NCBI RefSeq assembly: GCF_030848565.1
Contig: NZ_JAVDDV010000001.1
Location: 124,001-188,000 of the forward strand
DNA length: 64,000 bases
Source of the DNA: Natronolimnohabitans sp. A-GB9
Lineage (GTDB): Archaea; Halobacteriota; Halobacteria; Halobacteriales; Natrialbaceae
Reading direction: 5' to 3'
In this document: positions 18,454 through 40,384 of the stretch, piece after piece
How the letters are laid out: each line of letters opens with the position of its first letter
How positions within the stretch are numbered: position 1 is the first letter of the stretch
Translations under genes and position numbers: made by a program
Notes under the pieces: model-generated
Seen by the model: only the letters and a program-made list of their open reading frames with translations
Database searches by the model: none
What the model was told of the DNA's origin: nothing

Positions 18454-19122
18454 ATGTCCCCACAGTTTACCGACGACGACATCGGCAAGACCGTCGTCAA
18501 CGCCCACGGCGACGAGGTCGGGCTCGTCGCGGACGTCGAACACGGCACCGCCCACGTCGAGCCGGATCCCGGCATCACGGACACGATCAAGGCGAAACTC
18601 GGCTGGGGCGGGACCGACGAAGATACCTATCCGCTCCAGGAGGGGTCTGTCGCGCAAGTGACCGACGACCAGGTCCGCCTCGAGGGTGACCTCTCGGGCA
18701 GTGCCGGTAGCACAACCGGTACTGGAACCACGAGCGACATGGACACAGGGTCGGAGACGACAGGCACGACCGATACCGGAACGACCGGCACCGGAACCGA
18801 CAGGGGCGACGATGAGTTGATCGGTGACGATGACGACGATATGATCGGTGACGACGACAGCGGACTCATGGACGACGATGACGACGATATGATCGGTGAC
18901 GATGACGACGATACGATCGGTGACGACGACAGCGGACTCACGGACGACGATGACGAGTTGATCGGCGACGACGATGACAGCGGACTCATGGACGACGATG
19001 ACGACGACCTAATCGGTGACGACGATGACAGCGGACTCACGGACGACGATGACGACGACCTGATCGGTGACGATGATGACAGCGGACTCACGGACGACGA
19101 TGACGACGATGTTATCGGCTGA
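18454..19122 (+). CDS. PRC-barrel protein with acidic tandem-repeat tail
   Basis: The 222-residue protein has an N-terminal PRC-barrel-like domain (residues ~1-80: DIGKTVVNAHGDEVGLVADV and QVTDDQVRLEGDL). A Gly/Thr/Ser linker (~82-118) follows, then an extremely acidic tail of about 100 residues. The tail is built from variants of a ~16-residue unit containing DDDDDLIGDDDDSGLTD. PRC-barrels occur in ribosome-maturation and photosystem proteins and as stand-alone haloarchaeal proteins of unknown role. The tail is presumably disordered, may bind cations and could vary in repeat number. No signal peptide is present, so it is likely cytoplasmic. Confidence 0.82.
   Translation: MSPQFTDDDIGKTVVNAHGDEVGLVADVEHGTAHVEPDPGITDTIKAKLGWGGTDEDTYPLQEGSVAQVTDDQVRLEGDLSGSAGSTTGTGTTSDMDTGSETTGTTDTGTTGTGTDRGDDELIGDDDDDMIGDDDSGLMDDDDDDMIGDDDDDTIGDDDSGLTDDDDELIGDDDDSGLMDDDDDDLIGDDDDSGLTDDDDDDLIGDDDDSGLTDDDDDDVIG
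18811..19119 (+). repeat. Coding tandem repeat, acidic IGDDDDSGL units
   Basis: The DNA encoding the tail alternates GATCGGTGACGA blocks with GACAGCGGACTC blocks. Units are of unequal length because Asp runs vary between three and six residues, consistent with slippage or unequal recombination. It lies wholly in frame inside the PRC-barrel gene. Confidence 0.85.
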
Positions 19123-31717: not shown

Positions 31718-31797
31718 TACTGTCGGACAGCAGTCACTGCAGCGGGGTCGCCTGACGGAAGCGGCGACTGCTCACAATAGTTCTGTCGGGAGTCTGA
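31715..31797 (+). repeat. TGA-flanked palindromic repeat, family A, on the stop codon of the DHH protein
   Basis: The stop TGA continues TACTGTCGGACAGCAGTCAC, and the element ends CTGTCGGGAGTC-TGA. The interior AGCGGGGTCGCCTGACGGAAGC corresponds to that of the copy at 39181. Confidence 0.82.
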
Positions 31798-32395: not shown

Positions 32396-33520
32396 CTACT
32401 CCTCGAGTATCGAGTCGACGGCCGCGTGATCGATCAATAGTTCCTCCATCCGATCGACGGTTTCGGCGTCCCGCGTTCGACCGCTTCGGACGACGTCTTC
32501 GGCACGTTCGACGGTCGTGAGCGTGTCCGTCTGGACGGAGAGTATCGGCATCGATTTCTCCGCAGCCTGGCCGACGATCGCTCCCGACGGCCTGTGGCCT
32601 CCGGTCAGGATGAGACAGCGAACGCCGGGTGCCTCGAGTGCGGCTGTGTGGATTTCGGCGCGGTCGCCGCCGGTGATCACGGCGGCGTCTTTCGTCCGGC
32701 GGAAGTGTCGTAAGGCGCTGTCGGCGCCCATCGCACCGACGCTGAACCGTTCGACGTAGCCGTCTTTCCCCTCCTCGACGAGCATCGTGGCGCCGAGTTC
32801 GTCGGCCAGATCGCCGACCGTCACACCCGAGAGCGTCCGCTCGCTTGGAATTACGCCGAAGACGTCGATCCCCCGCCCTTCGAGGTAGGGGACGACGTCG
32901 GTCTCGAGGGTATCGTAGACGGCGTCGGCGACGTCGTTGAAAACGACACCGGCGAGTCGGTCGCCGAAGGCCTCGGCTGCAGCGAGGATGGCGTCGACGT
33001 CGCCGGGAACTTCGTAGGCGGCGACGAGGACGACACGGGCGTCGAGCAACGCTGCGATATCAGCGTCGGTGAGATCGATAATCCCACCGAGGTCGTAGGT
33101 CGTGCCGCCCTCGACGAACAGTCGGTCACGGCCGTCAGAAACCGTCCCGAAGGCCTCGAGGATCCGCTCTCGGAGTTCATCGGGCGACTCACGACCGCGG
33201 ATCGCTTGCTCGATGAACGTCGGCGAGTAGACGATCGGCTCCAGGTCGTGCATCTCGGCCTCGAGGTCGAGCAACTCGCGGGCGAGCAACGGATCTTCGT
33301 CTAGGGTCTTCCCGACGTTGCTCTCCAGTCGGGTTCCTTTTGGTTTCATGTAGCCGACGCTGTCACCGTCGTCGGCCGCGATCCGGGCGAGTGCCAGCGC
33401 GATCGCCGTCTTGCCGGTACTCTCGGGGAGCGAACTGACGAGGACGGTGTCCGTGTCGTTCGTGTCGATCTCGGTCGGTTCGTGCTCGGTCGTCTCTGGG
33501 TCGGTGTCGGTATCGCTCAT
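32396..33520 (-). CDS. Phosphotransacetylase-family protein (AAA/BioD-like and DRTGG domains)
   Basis: The 374-residue protein starts with an acidic leader and a BioD/dethiobiotin-synthase-like P-loop region: VLVSSLPESTGKTAIALALA with VGYMKPKGTRL. A second domain follows from ~210 (GVIPSERTLSGVTVGDLADELGAT, MGADSALRHFRR), the DRTGG module seen in N-terminal halves of large phosphotransacetylases. The C-terminal catalytic PTA domain is absent, so phosphate transfer itself is unlikely; it may be a regulatory partner. Its ATG overlaps the stop of the acetyl-CoA synthetase gene by 4 nt, so the two are co-translated. Confidence 0.85.
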   Translation of the reverse strand: MSDTDTDPETTEHEPTEIDTNDTDTVLVSSLPESTGKTAIALALARIAADDGDSVGYMKPKGTRLESNVGKTLDEDPLLARELLDLEAEMHDLEPIVYSPTFIEQAIRGRESPDELRERILEAFGTVSDGRDRLFVEGGTTYDLGGIIDLTDADIAALLDARVVLVAAYEVPGDVDAILAAAEAFGDRLAGVVFNDVADAVYDTLETDVVPYLEGRGIDVFGVIPSERTLSGVTVGDLADELGATMLVEEGKDGYVERFSVGAMGADSALRHFRRTKDAAVITGGDRAEIHTAALEAPGVRCLILTGGHRPSGAIVGQAAEKSMPILSVQTDTLTTVERAEDVVRSGRTRDAETVDRMEELLIDHAAVDSILEE

Positions 33521-35631
33521 TGGTCTGGATCGGTCTCGAGCTCGTCGGTGTCGACGGTAAGTCTGAGGTCGATCGCCTGTACGCCATCGGGGCCCGCAAC
33601 CAGCGGATTAATATCGAGTTCGAGGACCGACGGGAAGTCGGTCACCAGCTGTGAGAGGCGCTGGATCGTCTCGACGACGCCGTCGACGTCGGCAGGTTCA
33701 CGTCCGCGGGCGCCGCGTAACAGCGGCGTCGCCTGGATCTCGTCGACCATCGCCCGCGCTTCGTCCTCGCCGATCGGGGCGACGCGGACCGACGTATCCT
33801 CTAAGATCTCGACGAAGATGCCGCCGAGGCCGAACAGCAACAGTGGGCCGAACTGCGGGTCACGGTTCATCCCGACAATCGTTTCGGTCGCGTCATCGAG
33901 GTCGACCTGCTCCTGGACCTGCACGCCGAGGACGGTCGCGTCGGGCTGGTAGTTGCGTGCTCGAGCGACGAGATCCTCGTAGGCGTCGTAGACGTCCTCG
34001 TCGGCGACGCCGATCTTGACGCCGCCGATATCGGACTTGTGGGAGATGTCGGGACTGACGATCTTCATGACGACGTCGCCCTCGATCGACGTGGCGACCT
34101 CGCGGGCCCGGTTCGGGTCGTCGACGATCTCTCCGTCGGGTGTCGGGATGCCGTAGGCGTCGAACAGGTCCATCGACTCGACGCCCAGACGGTTGTCGTC
34201 GCGGTCGGTCGCCCGTGTAAGGATCTCGCGGGCACGCTCGCGGTCGACGTCGAACCGTTCGGGCTCGTCGATCGTCCGCTCGCGGACGTCGCGGTAGGTC
34301 GCCAGCGCATCGAGACCCGATACCGCCCGGGACGGATCGAAGTAGTTCGGAATGCCGAAATCACGGAGGACTTCCTCGGCGGCACGAGCCCGTTGTCCTC
34401 CCATCAGACAGGCGACGACGGGCGTCTCGTGTGCTTGGCGTTTCTCGATGATCGTCTCGGCGAGGTTGTCGTATTCTAAGACCGCCGTCGGCGAACTGAC
34501 GACGACCGCACTACCGACGTTTGAGTCCTCGAGAACGATCGATAAGGCCTCGCCGAAGCGTTCGGCGTCGGCATCACCGATGATGTCGATCGGGTTGTAG
34601 ACGCTCGCTTCGTCGGGCATCGCCGCGGCGAGTTCGTCGATCGTCTCGTCTTCGAAGTCGGCGATCTCGAGGGTCGAATCACCCACTGCGTCAGTCGTGA
34701 GCACGCCGGGACCGCCGGCGTTCGTGACGACGGCCACGCCGTCGCTGTCGGGTTCGGGCAGCCCGGAAAGCGCCCGCGAGTAGTCGAACAGTTCCTGGAC
34801 GGAGTCCGCGCGGATAACGCCAGCCTGCTCGAGGCCGGCCTCGTAGGCGCGCTCGCTGCCGGCGATCGCGCCAGTGTGAGAGGAGGCGGCCTGTGCGCCG
34901 GCGTCGGTCCGGCCCGACTTGACGAGGACGATCGGCGTCTCGTCGGTGACCGCACGGGCCGTCTCGACGAACTCGTCACCGTCGTCGATCCCCTCGAGGT
35001 AGCCGATGATGACGTCGGTGTCGGGATCGTCGCCCCACTCGCGGACGAAGTCGGTCTCGTCGAGAACGGCCTTGTTACCGAGTGAGACGACGTCCCGGAA
35101 GCCGATCCCCTGCTCGTTGGCCCAGTCGAGTACGGCGGTGATGAACGCCCCCGACTGGCTCATAAAGGAGATCGAGCCCTCGATGGCGTCCTCGGGACCG
35201 AAACTCGCGTTCATATCGTTTCGCGTCGACATGATCCCGAGGCTGTTGGGGCCGACGACGTTGAGATCGTAGTCGGCGGCGACCTCGCGCAGTCGGCGCT
35301 CGCGTTCGGCACCTTCACCGCCAGTCTCGGAGAAGCCGGCGGTGATGACGACGACGTTTCGGGTTCCCGTCTCGCCGATCTCGCGCAGCGTCCCGGCGAC
35401 GGCGTCGGGTGGGACTACGACGACCGCCAACTCGATCGGCGGCGCACTCGACACGTCTTCGTAACACTCGAGACCGAGCACCTCGTCGCGACTCGGATTG
35501 ATCGGTACGACGTCGCCGCCGAACGTGTCCCGGAGGTTCTCCAGGATCGCGCGGCCGACGGCGCCTTCACGGTCGGTCGCCCCGACTACGGCGACGGTCT
35601 CGGGATCGAATAAGTCGACTAGCCGTCCCAT
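33517..35631 (-). CDS. ADP-forming acetyl-CoA synthetase (fused alpha-beta subunits)
   Basis: It converts acetyl-CoA, ADP and phosphate to acetate and ATP, the archaeal energy-conserving route. The 704-residue chain has the CoA-binding domain (VAVVGATDREGAVGRAILENL), the succinyl-CoA-ligase-like domain with catalytic His in AASSHTGAIAGSERA, and the C-terminal ATP-grasp domain (VVMKIVSPDISHKSDIGGVK; LFGLGGIFVEILED). ATG 35631 (MGRLVDLFDP) was chosen over a start 12 codons upstream. The overlap with the downstream phosphotransacetylase-like gene suggests a two-gene operon. Confidence 0.93.
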   Translation of the reverse strand: MGRLVDLFDPETVAVVGATDREGAVGRAILENLRDTFGGDVVPINPSRDEVLGLECYEDVSSAPPIELAVVVVPPDAVAGTLREIGETGTRNVVVITAGFSETGGEGAERERRLREVAADYDLNVVGPNSLGIMSTRNDMNASFGPEDAIEGSISFMSQSGAFITAVLDWANEQGIGFRDVVSLGNKAVLDETDFVREWGDDPDTDVIIGYLEGIDDGDEFVETARAVTDETPIVLVKSGRTDAGAQAASSHTGAIAGSERAYEAGLEQAGVIRADSVQELFDYSRALSGLPEPDSDGVAVVTNAGGPGVLTTDAVGDSTLEIADFEDETIDELAAAMPDEASVYNPIDIIGDADAERFGEALSIVLEDSNVGSAVVVSSPTAVLEYDNLAETIIEKRQAHETPVVACLMGGQRARAAEEVLRDFGIPNYFDPSRAVSGLDALATYRDVRERTIDEPERFDVDRERAREILTRATDRDDNRLGVESMDLFDAYGIPTPDGEIVDDPNRAREVATSIEGDVVMKIVSPDISHKSDIGGVKIGVADEDVYDAYEDLVARARNYQPDATVLGVQVQEQVDLDDATETIVGMNRDPQFGPLLLFGLGGIFVEILEDTSVRVAPIGEDEARAMVDEIQATPLLRGARGREPADVDGVVETIQRLSQLVTDFPSVLELDINPLVAGPDGVQAIDLRLTVDTDELETDPDQ

Positions 35632-35710
35632 CGTTCGACAAGTCGACACGTATGGAAGTAAAGCCACTCCCTACTCCCAGTCGGGGAGAACCTCGCAGAG
35701 AATAGAACGA

Positions 35711-36814
35711 TCAGTGCATCGAGATCGCAGATCCGGACCGATCGGAGACAGCGATCGCGAACAGGTAGAAAACGATCGCGACGACGACGATCGATCCTCC
35801 GGGTGGAAGATCCGCGCTGATCGCAAACGCTAGCCCGCCCAACACTGCGATCTGGCCGACCAGGATCGAGAGATACAGCGTCTCGCGAAAGCTCCGGGCG
35901 ACCTGTGAGGCAGTCGCGACTGGGATCACGAGCATCGCGGCGACGAGGATCACGCCCAGGATCTGCATCGCGCCGACGACGACAACCGCGGTCATGACGA
36001 TCAACAGGGTGTTGTAGCGGTCGACGTTCAGCCGTGCGACGCGGGCTGCCTGCTCGTCGAACGTAATAAAGAGCAGTTGCTTGTAGGTCACGGCGACGAC
36101 GGCGACGACGGCGACGGTGAGAAGTGCCACCATTAGTGCTCCTTCGATGGTGACAATCGAGAGGTTGCCAAACAGGAAGCCCTCGATGTCGATCGCCATC
36201 GCGGCGAAGTCCCGACCCCAGCTGATGAGCAACGTCCCGACTGCGAAGCTCCCGCTGAGAATGATCGCGATCGGCACGTCGCCGTAGCTGTTCGTCCGTT
36301 CGGTCAGTCGCTGGAGTCCAATCGCGCCGAGTACGCTCACGACGAGCGCGACGAACAGCAGCGAGCCGTGCCAGCCGGTGGCGGCGATAAACAGGACTCC
36401 GATGGCGACACCCGCAAACGCCGTGTGAGCGAGCGTCTCGCCGATAAGCGCCATCTGGCGGTGCACCAGATAGGTTCCCACGAGCGGCGCGACGATTCCG
36501 ATGAGGACGCCCGTCGCGATCATCCGCCATATGAACGCATACCGTAAAACGCTCGTCCCGAGGTAGACGTCCATATAGGCACCCACGATCAGGAACTGCT
36601 CGAACGCAAGCGTCGCGTAGGGTCCGACGACGGCCCACTCGGGCGCAAACCGGAGCCAATCGAGGAGGACAAACCCGATCATCAGGACCGCGAACAGGCC
36701 CGTCGCGGCGATCCCGACGAACTCGAGGCGTTCTCGCATCGTGTCTCCGAGAAACCACGCGAGACGGCTGGTGTTTCGCTCGATCGTCTCCTCGGATCGT
36801 GTGTCCAGGCTCAT
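35711..36814 (-). CDS. znuB: Zinc/metal ABC transporter permease (ZnuB type)
   Basis: The 367-residue permease has about eight to nine transmembrane helices and belongs to the ABC-3 family of Zn/Mn uptake systems. The conserved blocks are VHRQMALIGETLAHTAFAGVAIG and LGVILVAAMLVIPVATA. A ~45-residue cytoplasmic N-terminus and an extra N-terminal helix precede the family core. Its ATG overlaps the stop codon of the ATPase gene by 4 nt. The pairing with ZnuC and ZnuA shows a complete uptake system; zinc is inferred from the His-rich partner at 39440, and manganese is not excluded. Confidence 0.9.
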   Translation of the reverse strand: MSLDTRSEETIERNTSRLAWFLGDTMRERLEFVGIAATGLFAVLMIGFVLLDWLRFAPEWAVVGPYATLAFEQFLIVGAYMDVYLGTSVLRYAFIWRMIATGVLIGIVAPLVGTYLVHRQMALIGETLAHTAFAGVAIGVLFIAATGWHGSLLFVALVVSVLGAIGLQRLTERTNSYGDVPIAIILSGSFAVGTLLISWGRDFAAMAIDIEGFLFGNLSIVTIEGALMVALLTVAVVAVVAVTYKQLLFITFDEQAARVARLNVDRYNTLLIVMTAVVVVGAMQILGVILVAAMLVIPVATASQVARSFRETLYLSILVGQIAVLGGLAFAISADLPPGGSIVVVAIVFYLFAIAVSDRSGSAISMH

Positions 36815-37554
36815 GGATGATCGTGTTCGACGACGCCGTGAGCCGCGCCGTAGGCTTCCGCTAAGGCGTCGCTCTCGAGGAACGAAACGGTGTCTCCGTG
36901 GTGGTACAGCTTCGTGTTGATACAGGCGATTTTGTTCACGTGTTTGGTGAGAACGTCGATGTCGTGTTCGATGAGGATGATCGTGATCCCCTTCCGATTG
37001 AGGTCGTCGAGGAGGCCATAGAACTGATCGCGGGACTGGGCGTCGACGCCGACGGTCGGCTCGTCCAGTGCCAGCAGGTCGGCCTCTGAGGCAAGCGCTC
37101 GCGCAATGAAGGCACGCTGGCGCTGGCCGCCAGAGAGCTGGTTGATCCGTCGCTCGGCCAGATCCGCGATATCGACCGTTCGAAGCGCATCGTCGACGAT
37201 CTCGTAATCGGCTTCTCGAAGCCGCGAGTGGCCGACGTGTGCGAACCGACCCATCGTTACCGCTTCCCGGACGGTGATCGGCATCGTTCCGCCTCTGTCG
37301 GTCGATCGCTGGGCGACGTAGCCGATGCGTTCGCCGTCCTCGAACTCCTGGGCCGGCTCGCCGAACAGCTCGACCGAGCCGCTATCGGGCTGTTGCAGGC
37401 CGAGCATGAGGTGCAACAGTGTCGTCTTGCCCGAGCCGTTCGGCCCGATCAATCCGAGGAAGTCTCCCTGCTCGACCGACAGCGAGATCTCCTCGACTGC
37501 AGTCTTCTCGCCGTAGGCGAACGTAACGTCGTCGACGGTGACAGCCGGCTTCAC
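36811..37554 (-). CDS. znuC: Zinc/metal ABC transporter ATP-binding protein (ZnuC type)
   Basis: The 247-residue ABC ATPase has Walker A GLIGPNGSGKTTLLHLML near residue 35, Q-loop GYVAQRSTD, the signature NQLSGGQRQRAFIARAL, Walker B ADLLALDEPTVGVD and the switch His in IILIEHDIDVL. It powers metal import by ZnuB at the inner face of the membrane. It lies between znuA (104 nt upstream) and znuB, which it overlaps by 4 nt. Confidence 0.94.
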   Translation of the reverse strand: MKPAVTVDDVTFAYGEKTAVEEISLSVEQGDFLGLIGPNGSGKTTLLHLMLGLQQPDSGSVELFGEPAQEFEDGERIGYVAQRSTDRGGTMPITVREAVTMGRFAHVGHSRLREADYEIVDDALRTVDIADLAERRINQLSGGQRQRAFIARALASEADLLALDEPTVGVDAQSRDQFYGLLDDLNRKGITIILIEHDIDVLTKHVNKIACINTKLYHHGDTVSFLESDALAEAYGAAHGVVEHDHP

Positions 37555-37658: not shown

Positions 37659-39053
37659 TCAATCAGAACCCAGCGCCTTCTCGAGTGCGGGGATGTTCAC
37701 TTCCTCCATCTGTTCGACCCAGCCCCAGCCCTTGTCGGCCCACTCGTGGATCGTCCCCTCGGCAGGGGTAAGCGGTTCGGCGTCGGTCGCGGAACTGTTT
37801 TCTAGGAGCATCTGGGCCGCGTTGGGCAGTCTGTCTTCATGCGGCGTCTCGAATGGGTCATAGAGGATCGTGTCGATGTCGTGTTCATCGACGATCTCGA
37901 TCATATCGGCGATGTCGTTGGGTGACGCCTCGGCGTCGGGCGTGACACCGACGGGGGTGTGTAACTCGAAGTCGTACCGCCGTTCGATGTACTGGAACGA
38001 GTCGTGAGCGACGAAGACGGCGACGTCACGCTCTGCGTTCTCTGTGAGTTCCTCGAACTGCTGGTCGACGTCGGCGAGTCGCTCCTTGTACGCTTCGGCG
38101 TTTTCGGCGAACAGTTCGGCGTTGTCCGGATCGACCTCGGCGAGTCCGTCCGCGATAGTGTCGACGACTCGTTGTGCGAGGACGGGATCGACCCAGACGT
38201 GTGGATCGTGGCCAGGCCCAGCACCGTCGTCGTCGATCTCCTCGACCACATCGACGCTCATCGGGGCCGCGTCGGTGTCGTAGACGAGGTCGCCCTCGTG
38301 TCGAAGCTCGAAAACGATCTCCGTCTCCCCTTCCTCGCGGCCGATCAGTGCGACGGAATCGCCGTGTGACTCGATCTCGAGGACGTCTTCGGCTGCCCCC
38401 TCGGCCAGCCGTGCGTCGAACTGAAATGCCTCGTTGGGACCGAGCGGGACGACGCGCTCCTGGCTGTCCGTGAAGACGGCCCCGATCGGGACGTTGTCGT
38501 CGACGGGAACGTCAGGTACGCCGCCGTGCCAGTGATCGATGTGCCAGTAACCCAGTTGGTCGTTCGATCGGAGGTCATAGAAGTCAAAAACGTCTCGAGA
38601 GATGTCGTCGGGATCGAAGTCGTGGTCGTCGTCGGGTTCGGGCAACGAATCGTCCTCGCTGCCGTCGAACGGGATGAGATACGGCCCCATTCCTTCGAGG
38701 CCGTCGATGACCGTGACCTCATCCTCGTAGTCCCGTTCCAGATCCGCGACGATTTCCTGCGCCCAGGAGAACTCGGGCGTGTCGAGGTAGATGAAGACCT
38801 TGCTCGAGGCAATCTCCGGAGCGAGGTTGCCGTCGGGTTCCCAGCCGTGTCCCATCTCCCCCGTATCGACGGGGTTTTCGAAGTCGATCTCGTCGCCAGC
38901 GACGTGGTTTGCCCAGTCCCAGAGCGCGAAGAACGCGGCGTATCCTCCCTCGCCGCTACTGTCCGCGAAGGGATCACTCAGACAGCCGGCGAGTGTCCCG
39001 AGCGTTACCGCTCCGGCACCAGTTTTGAGGACTGATCGCCGTGTGAAATTCAT
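37659..39053 (-). CDS. znuA: Zinc/metal ABC transporter substrate-binding lipoprotein (ZnuA type) with inserted domain
   Basis: The 464-residue precursor begins MNFTRRSVLKTGAGAVTLGT and reaches the lipobox LAGC: a Tat-exported, lipid-anchored receptor. The family core is present at both ends, with metal ligands His in GHDPHVWVDPVLA and in VAHDSFQYIERRY and Asp in TILYDPFETPHEDR. Typical ZnuA proteins have ~300 residues. Here ~130 extra residues (about 130-260) interrupt the core, starting in an Asp/His patch (DDDHDFDPDD) with YWHIDHWHGG. The frame runs upstream to 39233, but only ATG 39053 gives the signal. It is transcribed ahead of znuC and znuB. Confidence 0.91.
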   Translation of the reverse strand: MNFTRRSVLKTGAGAVTLGTLAGCLSDPFADSSGEGGYAAFFALWDWANHVAGDEIDFENPVDTGEMGHGWEPDGNLAPEIASSKVFIYLDTPEFSWAQEIVADLERDYEDEVTVIDGLEGMGPYLIPFDGSEDDSLPEPDDDHDFDPDDISRDVFDFYDLRSNDQLGYWHIDHWHGGVPDVPVDDNVPIGAVFTDSQERVVPLGPNEAFQFDARLAEGAAEDVLEIESHGDSVALIGREEGETEIVFELRHEGDLVYDTDAAPMSVDVVEEIDDDGAGPGHDPHVWVDPVLAQRVVDTIADGLAEVDPDNAELFAENAEAYKERLADVDQQFEELTENAERDVAVFVAHDSFQYIERRYDFELHTPVGVTPDAEASPNDIADMIEIVDEHDIDTILYDPFETPHEDRLPNAAQMLLENSSATDAEPLTPAEGTIHEWADKGWGWVEQMEEVNIPALEKALGSD

Positions 39054-39099
39054 ATCGATAGCTGGCGCCGCTGCGTTAAAAGTGTTATTATCTGGAAGA

Positions 39100-39109
39100 G
39101 TTCTATTAA
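39100..39109 (-). promoter_or_regulatory. Shared upstream element TTAATAGAAC, znuA copy
   Basis: On the minus strand TTAATAGAAC is 47 nt before the znuA start and is followed after 9 nt by the A/T-rich box TAATAAC. The identical 10-mer occurs before the His/Asp-rich lipoprotein gene (40192-40201) at 48 nt from its start, with the same 9-nt spacing to TATTACT. A common promoter or metalloregulator site is inferred. Confidence 0.5.
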
Positions 39110-39180
39110 TAACTCGTGATGGTATGAGAGATGTCACTAGCAACTCGAGTGGACGCCTCAGACCCATGTCGAGAAAACGG

Positions 39181-39264
39181 TCATACTGTCGGACAGCAGT
39201 CACTGAAGCGAATTCGCCGGACGGAAGCGGCAAATGCTCACAATAGTTCTGTCCGACAGTGTCA
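39181..39264 (-). repeat. TGA-flanked palindromic repeat, family A, best-preserved copy
   Basis: The terminal arms ACTGTCGGACAG and CTGTCCGACAGT pair perfectly over 12 bp. Read on the minus strand it runs TGA-CACTGTCGG to CCGACAGTA-TGA. It lies in the 386-bp spacer between the His/Asp-rich gene and znuA, 177 nt after the stop of the former. The rest of the spacer holds the znuA promoter and no gene. Confidence 0.82.
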
Positions 39265-39439: not shown

Positions 39440-40144
39440 CTAGCTGTCGCCGGCGAGTCGGAGGACAGCACGCTCGTCGTGCAGTTCGACGATCGAGTAC
39501 TCCTCGATGTAGTCACAGTCCTCGACTGTGTCGGTCTCGTATTCGACGTGACCGTCGACGATCTCGATCGCCCCTTCGACGTCGGAGAAGAAGGCGAACG
39601 TATCGTCGTCGTGGTCGTCGTCGTGGTCGTGATCGTCGTCGTGGTCGTGATCGTCGTCGTGGTCGTGATCGTCGTCGTGGTCGTGATCGTCGTCGTGGTC
39701 GTGATCGTCGTCGTGGTCGTGATCGTCGTCGTGGTCGTGATCGTGATCGTGGTCGTCGTCGTGGTCGTGGTCGTCGACCTCGAACGCGACGTATCCGCTG
39801 TCGCCTTCGATGGTGACCTCGAACGGCTGGTGCGTATCGGAGATCGTCGGTGCGTCGTCCTCGGACGCACCCGCCGTAAGCGGGTCGCGTTCGTCGTGTT
39901 CCTTATGACCACAGGCGTGGTCAACGTCGCCGTCGCTCAGCCCGTCGTCGTCATCGTAATCACCGACACCTTCGACGAGAAGCGTCACGGTCGACTCCGT
40001 CGCTTCGTCGCCGTTCTCGTCGCCGTTCTCGTCGCCGTTCTCGTCATCGTCGCCACCGAGACAGCCGGCAAGGCCGAGCAGCGCGACCGAACCGGATGTT
40101 GCGAGCAGCTTTCGACGAGTCGATGAACGTGGGTTCACAGCCAT
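39440..40144 (-). CDS. His/Asp-repeat lipoprotein, probable zinc-binding accessory of the Znu system
   Basis: The 234-residue precursor opens with a twin-arginine signal and lipobox (STRRKLLATSGSVALLGLAGC). The mature protein has an acidic region, a His/Cys patch HACGHKEHDE, and a TISDTHQPFEVTIEG domain. A run of about 58 residues built from the 6-residue unit DHDHDD follows, with some 20 His. The last segment (FFSDVEGAIEIVDGHVEYET, then LHDERAVLRL) is folded. Such a His/Asp tract should bind many zinc ions at the cell surface. With znuA downstream on the same strand and a shared upstream 10-mer, it is likely a metal store or chaperone that feeds ZnuA. No family match is known to me. Confidence 0.82.
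   Translation of the reverse strand: MAVNPRSSTRRKLLATSGSVALLGLAGCLGGDDDENGDENGDENGDEATESTVTLLVEGVGDYDDDDGLSDGDVDHACGHKEHDERDPLTAGASEDDAPTISDTHQPFEVTIEGDSGYVAFEVDDHDHDDDHDHDHDHDDDHDHDDDHDHDDDHDHDDDHDHDDDHDHDDDHDHDDDHDDDTFAFFSDVEGAIEIVDGHVEYETDTVEDCDYIEEYSIVELHDERAVLRLAGDS
39605..39777 (-). repeat. Coding tandem repeat, 18-bp unit encoding DHDHDD
   Basis: GTCGTGATCGTCGTCGTG recurs with almost no change about seven times, with altered units at both ends. It lies wholly inside the His/Asp-rich lipoprotein gene. The near-identity of units suggests recent expansion. Confidence 0.9.
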
Positions 40145-40191
40145 GATAGTTTCTGGACAGTGATTGCGACTGCTTAGTAATAAGTAGAGCG

Positions 40192-40201
40192 GTTCTATTA
40201 A
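40192..40201 (-). promoter_or_regulatory. Shared upstream element TTAATAGAAC, His/Asp-rich gene copy
   Basis: The minus-strand TTAATAGAAC lies 48 nt before ATG 40144, 9 nt upstream of TATTACT, matching the znuA element in sequence and phase. Confidence 0.5.
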
Positions 40202-40384
40202 CTGTAGCTAATGGTTTATGTAGCGATAGCATGACCACGTTCGAATGCGATCACCTGGAGACAGTTCGATCGTCGCTGGACCCGTTTTTCGGCGCAACTC
40301 TCAGACCGGCTTCCGTTGGGTCAAACGTAACGTACAGTTGTCCCTTACAGTAGCTACTATGGCAAAACGAAACGAAACGCCGAT

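Follow-up and report, generated by a model that had tools for sequence, protein, structure and literature searches.

The lipoprotein gene and its zinc-importer neighbours

The reverse strand of the window, by which the whole 64,000-nucleotide stretch of DNA analysed here is meant, carries at 39440-40144 a gene for a Tat lipoprotein of 234 residues, delimited from the open reading frame list, a profile search and a survey of related loci, and composed of a domain referred to as D1 and a tract of Asp and His residues. Its N-terminus, MAVNPRSSTRRKLLATSGSVALLGLAGC, is a Tat signal with a lipobox (40061-40144, reverse strand), recognised from the sequence and from its likeness to a sister species. 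The twin arginine occupies residues 10-11, and the lipobox reads LAGC (residues 25-28). Both the twin arginine and the lipobox Cys (STRRKLLATSGSVALLGLAGC) are retained in orthologues, as befits a Tat-exported haloarchaeal lipoprotein. The Asp/His tract spans residues 124-181 (39602-39775, reverse strand; located by TRF, His counting and a structural model) and comprises 58 residues, 19 of them His and the remainder Asp, encoded by an 18-bp tandem array at 39603-39774 with 9.6 copies and a 95% match (TRF). The original prediction had described a Tat lipoprotein signal, a tandem repeat of about 58 residues of DHDHDD units and a His/Cys patch, and all three were recovered, the patch being DHACGHKEH at residues 75-83. 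A second repeat protein in the window (18454-19122), long and acidic, with LIGDDDDDSGLTDDDD-like units encoded by a 51-bp DNA repeat, contains no His and is unrelated to the lipoprotein finding.

Downstream of the lipoprotein gene, and likewise on the reverse strand, lie znuA (37659-39053), encoding a zinc-type substrate-binding Tat lipoprotein (PF01297, 5e-45), znuC (36811-37554), encoding the ATP-binding subunit (PF00005, with a match to AztA), and znuB (35711-36814), encoding the permease subunit (PF00950, 1.6e-55). With all three families above their cut-offs in one gene cluster, the partner operon qualifies as a cluster A-I zinc ABC importer (ZnuABC). The window ZnuA aligns best with the zinc-type proteins YcdH and AdcA, whose His residues are matched by H69, H285 and H350; we take these three to be the metal ligands, the third His presumably being a mark of zinc-binding as against manganese-binding proteins. 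A further domain, D2, is inserted in this ZnuA at the position of the His-rich loop of bacterial ZnuA (38250-38588, reverse strand), as defined by profiles, and is beta-rich in the model.

The znuA reading frame was listed from 39233, and a second Tat lipobox signal begins at 39053, which on sequence grounds is most likely the true start of ZnuA. Counted from this Tat-lipoprotein start, the gap between the two genes is 386 bp, compared with usually 70-160 bp in relatives, and the same-strand position of the lipoprotein upstream of znuA is borne out. Lying between the two genes is an inverted-repeat element (39185-39262) with the ends ACTGTCGGACAGCAGT and CTGTCCGACAGT. Its end sequence is found again at 31719, 48829 and 60612 in the window, and other parts of the genome contain nine similar elements of ~105 bp, so that the element looks dispersed and of MITE type. 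On the other side of the operon, znuB is closely followed on the same strand by genes of acyl-CoA synthetase-like and phosphotransacetylase-family proteins (32396-35667); an acyl-CoA synthetase gene occupies this place at four further loci (L028, L029, L030 and L032), two of which (L030 and L032) also have the phosphotransacetylase-family gene.

Carrier domains and the exchange of the Asp/His tract

Together, the parts flanking the tract make up a single beta-rich domain, D1, split in two, since relatives devoid of the tract run contiguously across that point. The N-terminal half (residues 52-122; 39779-39991, reverse strand) holds the conserved HACxH and TH motifs and the model strands 50-59, 107-113 and 116-122, and the C-terminal half (residues 182-234; 39443-39601, reverse strand) holds the invariant Cys210, both halves being defined by alignment A1 and the model. 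Across the 17 members of this alignment HAC-x-H is invariant, and the His of TH and the late Cys are conserved. Profile searches of the non-repeat parts, which the original prediction had proposed as a check, found no sequence relative of D1 in Pfam, NCBIfam or the PDB, nor of D2; judged by sequence, D1 and D2 are two uncatalogued domain families. An AlphaFold2 model of the window protein, built from an alignment of three sequences (mean pLDDT 66, core blocks 65-92, pTM 0.56), is a beta-sandwich in which the tract forms the loop between the adjoining strands 116-122 and 182-187. The closest solved fold to the D1 model is the collagenase collagen-binding domain 1nqd (VIA-align Z 6.7, rmsd 3.5, 96 residues), a weak match in that a Z below 8 may reflect a common arrangement, and a Foldseek comparison of the D1 model with the PDB gave nothing below E 0.39. 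The modelled likeness to collagenase collagen-binding or PPC-like beta-sandwiches is suggestive only. The unfamiliar fold originally proposed therefore holds at the level of sequence families, but is qualified by a predicted beta-sandwich with this weak structural match.

Searching genome contigs with the whole protein was swamped by patterns from the low-complexity tract and the signal peptide and yielded only 2 true relatives; the loci of D1 genomes were retrieved and then annotated with profiles. Among 391 Halobacteria genomes, D1 was detected in 27, which belong to 18 of 86 genera, and D2 in 72 (27 genera), a patchy occurrence relative to ZnuA-family proteins, which are present in 313. In a phylum sample of 247 genomes, many of them Halobacteria, no D1 was detected outside the window's own order, and tblastn searches with D1 and D2 against plasmids gave no match. 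D1 lipoproteins bearing a His tract lie upstream of znuA on the same strand in 13 distinct genomes from several families; absence of such co-occurrence with Znu genes across haloarchaea was part of what the original prediction had counted as a refutation. At three of the loci another gene intervenes (L028, L029 and L033), and the sole exception is a lipoprotein (L094) with no znuA within 18 kb. Many D1 proteins that carry no tract are encoded away from znuA.

Both the carrier domain and the position of the tract vary among these proteins. Within D1 the tract occupies loop 2 in the window protein and one relative (L071), loop 1 in three (L030, L082 and L086) and both loops in eight (L028, L029, L032, L033, L088, L089, L091 and L093). 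In a sister species of the same genus (G001), the slot upstream of znuA holds a lipoprotein with a near-identical signal peptide (83% identity to the window protein over residues 1-53), with D2, characterised by an invariant H and an HWH motif, as its domain and a DDHGHDD tract at its C-terminus. D2 lipoproteins precede znuA in ~20 further genomes, where ZnuA mostly also contains D2, and in one genome (G033) D2 is inserted into D1 at the very position of the window protein's tract.

A connection between the two partners also comes from four genomes of two genera (G017, G257, G118 and G396; loci L031, L083, L079 and L087), in which D1 and a His tract are found inside ZnuA itself, inserted immediately before the DPHxW zinc ligand. 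Neither a separate lipoprotein nor any other D1 was found in these four genomes by the D1 search. The first strand of D1, VTLLVEGV in the lipoproteins, reads VTLLAEGVS in the fusions and stands there at the C-terminal end of the domain, with the tract again directly after it, which indicates that D1 is circularly permuted in the fused proteins.

Since carrier domain and tract position are exchangeable in this way, the tract, and not the domain that bears it, is probably the working part. This bears on two competing explanations. According to the first, the repeat arose by slippage in an acidic linker and has no role in metal binding, D1 and D2 being structural and the tract a mere spacer; the near-perfect 18-bp array, the widely differing tract lengths among relatives and the Asp-rich nature of haloarchaeal linkers would all fit. 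His is nevertheless rare in control lipobox reading frames (mean 2.5%, n=12), yet the tract turns up again and again, its units and loop positions differing, both within ZnuA and on two domains that are unrelated to each other. It is moreover specific to the znuA slot, at least 6 His within 30 residues being found in 32 of 34 lipoproteins there against 4 of 16 D1 or D2 lipoproteins elsewhere (Fisher p ~1e-6), and slippage is judged clearly improbable. The second explanation, which we consider still less probable, regards the lipoprotein as a factor for assembly or docking, which would position ZnuA or maintain it in the apo state, with the tract secondary. The presence of D1 and D2 in both the partner lipoproteins and ZnuA is in keeping with such a role, as these domains could mediate contact or gate access, but the survival of the tract through exchange of its carrier runs contrary to the expectation for a purely structural D1. 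The exchange also touches the claim of a single dedicated buffer lipoprotein, which applies to the window, where the tract is on a separate protein, but not to relatives that bear it on D2 or inside ZnuA.

Aside from the znuA slot, contig 34 of the window's genome encodes multi-domain proteins with D1/D2 repeats (L021:8482-14622), one of 1039 residues (D1-D2-D2-D2-D1) and one of 565 residues with D1, together with a D1 lipoprotein that has an operator-like site of its own. Similar clusters are present at five other loci (L022, L023, L025, L078 and L080), some adjoining znuA. A D1-rhodanese lipoprotein is encoded on contig 1 (L026:3619-4638), preceded by a znuA-type operator.

A predicted operator and a candidate regulator

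Upstream of the window znuA lies a perfect inverted repeat, GTTATTA-N16-TAATAAC, beside a CTTTTAA box (39084-39113, reverse strand), scoring 25 bits with a position weight matrix (PWM) and predicted to be an operator. Among 42 znuA loci, the spacer of the best GTTATTA...TAATAAC match is exactly 16 bp in 34, and most loci with this spacing have a CTTTTA box after the motif, ~27 bp before the start codon. In Haloferax volcanii the znuA1 transcript begins 4 nt ahead of the start codon (PMC8155600), which fits the position of the box. The predicted operator of the lipoprotein gene, GTTAATA-N16-TACTAAG (40173-40202, reverse strand), is a degenerate copy with 14 bits, at the 97th percentile of controls. 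These two are the only sites of at least 13 bits in the 64-kb window.

The PWM was trained on 33 sites from znuA promoters and applied to lipoprotein promoters outside the training set. These held-out promoters exceeded the 95th percentile of 502 control upstream regions in 43 of 49 cases and the 99th percentile in only 9, because many lipoprotein sites are degenerate. Relative to dinucleotide shuffles the motif score peaks at a spacer of 16 (z 17.8 for D1 and 16.3 for D2 lipoproteins), and the shuffles and the spacing test together rule out AT-rich noise as the source of the motif. A single promoter serving both lipoprotein and znuA in the window genome looks unlikely, as a separate motif precedes each gene and the 386 bp between them include a dispersed repeat element.

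Elsewhere in the 4.3-Mb genome, further sites precede the D1-rhodanese lipoprotein, the contig-34 D1 lipoprotein and a COG0523 GTPase on contig 23, and one lies on contig 14 between a pair of COG0523 GTPase genes and a divergent NikR-like gene (L156:2029-5031). The COG0523 family has been linked to zinc starvation, and the same survey detected neither Fur nor Zur homologues among archaeal genomes (PMC2770081). Sites also precede two related FAD/NAD(P)-binding oxidoreductases (L150:6178-7413 and L151:1729-2970), relatives of which have operator-like sites nearby at four other loci (L115, L153, L154 and L159). A few other sites are without such context (C34:159537, C23:148400 and one in a microsatellite on C71). 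Control searches with the backward pattern gave 0 hits in this genome, but with the loosest setting most relatives gave 1 to 5; single weak sites in relatives therefore carry no meaning.

NikR operators consist of two inverted half-sites with a 16-bp spacer, and the haloarchaeal motif has the same layout, although the half-sites of E. coli NikR differ from it in length and sequence. The NikR-like gene on contig 14 is a candidate regulator of the zinc genes. It was not adopted as the established one, given that NikR-like genes occur in 22 of 22 genomes tested, four of which have no znuA, and keep ligands that look nickel-type. It is possible, though we advance this only tentatively, that a haloarchaeal zinc-starvation regulon, so far undescribed, is controlled by a NikR-family regulator at GTTATTA-N16-TAATAAC, and that its output includes a modular surface kit for collecting zinc, in which free lipoproteins, multi-domain surface proteins and ZnuA draw in varying combinations on D1, D2 and Asp/His tracts, D1 becoming circularly permuted on fusion.

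Proposed function and comparison with known systems

The most probable reading of these sequence features, to which we assign a probability of about 0.7, is that the protein is anchored in the membrane, exposed at the surface and collects metal as a partner of the ZnuABC importer. The connection with Znu put forward in the original prediction is well supported by conserved adjacency, fusion into ZnuA and a common promoter motif. With its gene adjoining ZnuABC, a common predicted control site and its counterpart built into ZnuA in some species, the lipoprotein most likely acts at the cell surface to gather zinc that is in short supply, and a zinc buffer or collector outside the cell is the likeliest form of this role, with zinc binding, transfer and zinc-dependent control all inferred from sequence. 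When zinc is scarce, a repressor would come off the GTTATTA-N16-TAATAAC sites, allowing synthesis of the lipoprotein together with ZnuABC. With many binding sites and fast exchange, the Asp/His tract could then collect zinc on the outside of the membrane. The metal would next be handed, perhaps via the conserved His/Cys site of D1, to the three His residues of ZnuA, the lipoprotein next to it, which in turn would feed ZnuB and ZnuC.

A different assignment, in which the tract collects nickel, cobalt or copper, or stores or detoxifies excess metal rather than feeding uptake, draws on the facts that Asp/His tracts are not specific for zinc and His-rich tracts bind several metals, that the promoter motif is NikR-like in its two half-sites and 16-bp spacer, and that one site adjoins a NikR-like gene retaining His-His-His-Cys. 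It is unlikely nonetheless, as the partner ZnuA has the three His ligands of AdcA and YcdH, and the motif sites of this genome precede znuA and COG0523 genes, with no nickel transporter seen at those examined; detoxification, in addition, leaves the insertion into the binding protein of an importer unexplained.

As a zinc collector, the window protein would most likely work like streptococcal PhtD, a surface zinc-binding protein with repeated His motifs that is encoded beside AdcAII and transfers Zn to it (PMC3842936). In both systems a His-motif surface protein is encoded beside the importer's zinc-binding lipoprotein, so that the separate buffer protein, originally presented as a departure from bacteria, has a bacterial precedent in the PhtD/AdcAII pair. 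By its domains the window protein stands outside the Pht family: PhtD carries HxxHxH motifs in small beta-repeats, whereas the haloarchaeal protein is an archaeal Tat lipoprotein with a linear DHDHDD tract on D1, or D2 in relatives. No HxxHxH triad was found in it, and no Pht chain appeared among the PDB matches of the D1 profile. The His-rich loop of bacterial ZnuA and AdcA is likewise a low-affinity His/Asp stretch, and it occupies the equivalent place in the fold, immediately ahead of the DPHxW ligand. In the window ZnuA this place is taken by D2, with the tract on a separate protein, while in the four fusions D1 and the tract occupy the loop.

Archaeal zinc acquisition has been little studied, and no described haloarchaeal His-rich zinc lipoprotein was found in literature searches; the present analysis offers two domain families new to the catalogues, a specific operator prediction and a natural fusion by which ZnuA is joined to a His-rich surface protein. 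Additional zinc carriers, periplasmic or at the surface, that accompany a cluster A-I zinc importer are also represented by ZinT and by AztD, which is encoded with such an importer (PMC6689063), and neither the protein nor the D1 and D2 alignments matched the curated ZinT, AztD or ZrgA families in Pfam and NCBIfam. The cyanobacterial protein ZepA, for which its authors report no archaeal homologues, resembles the window protein in its proposed role and modelled fold: it is exported, assists zinc uptake, combines a flexible stretch containing His with a beta-sandwich domain and is linked to zinc-starvation genes, but is a PEP-CTERM protein rather than a lipoprotein (PMC10957091).
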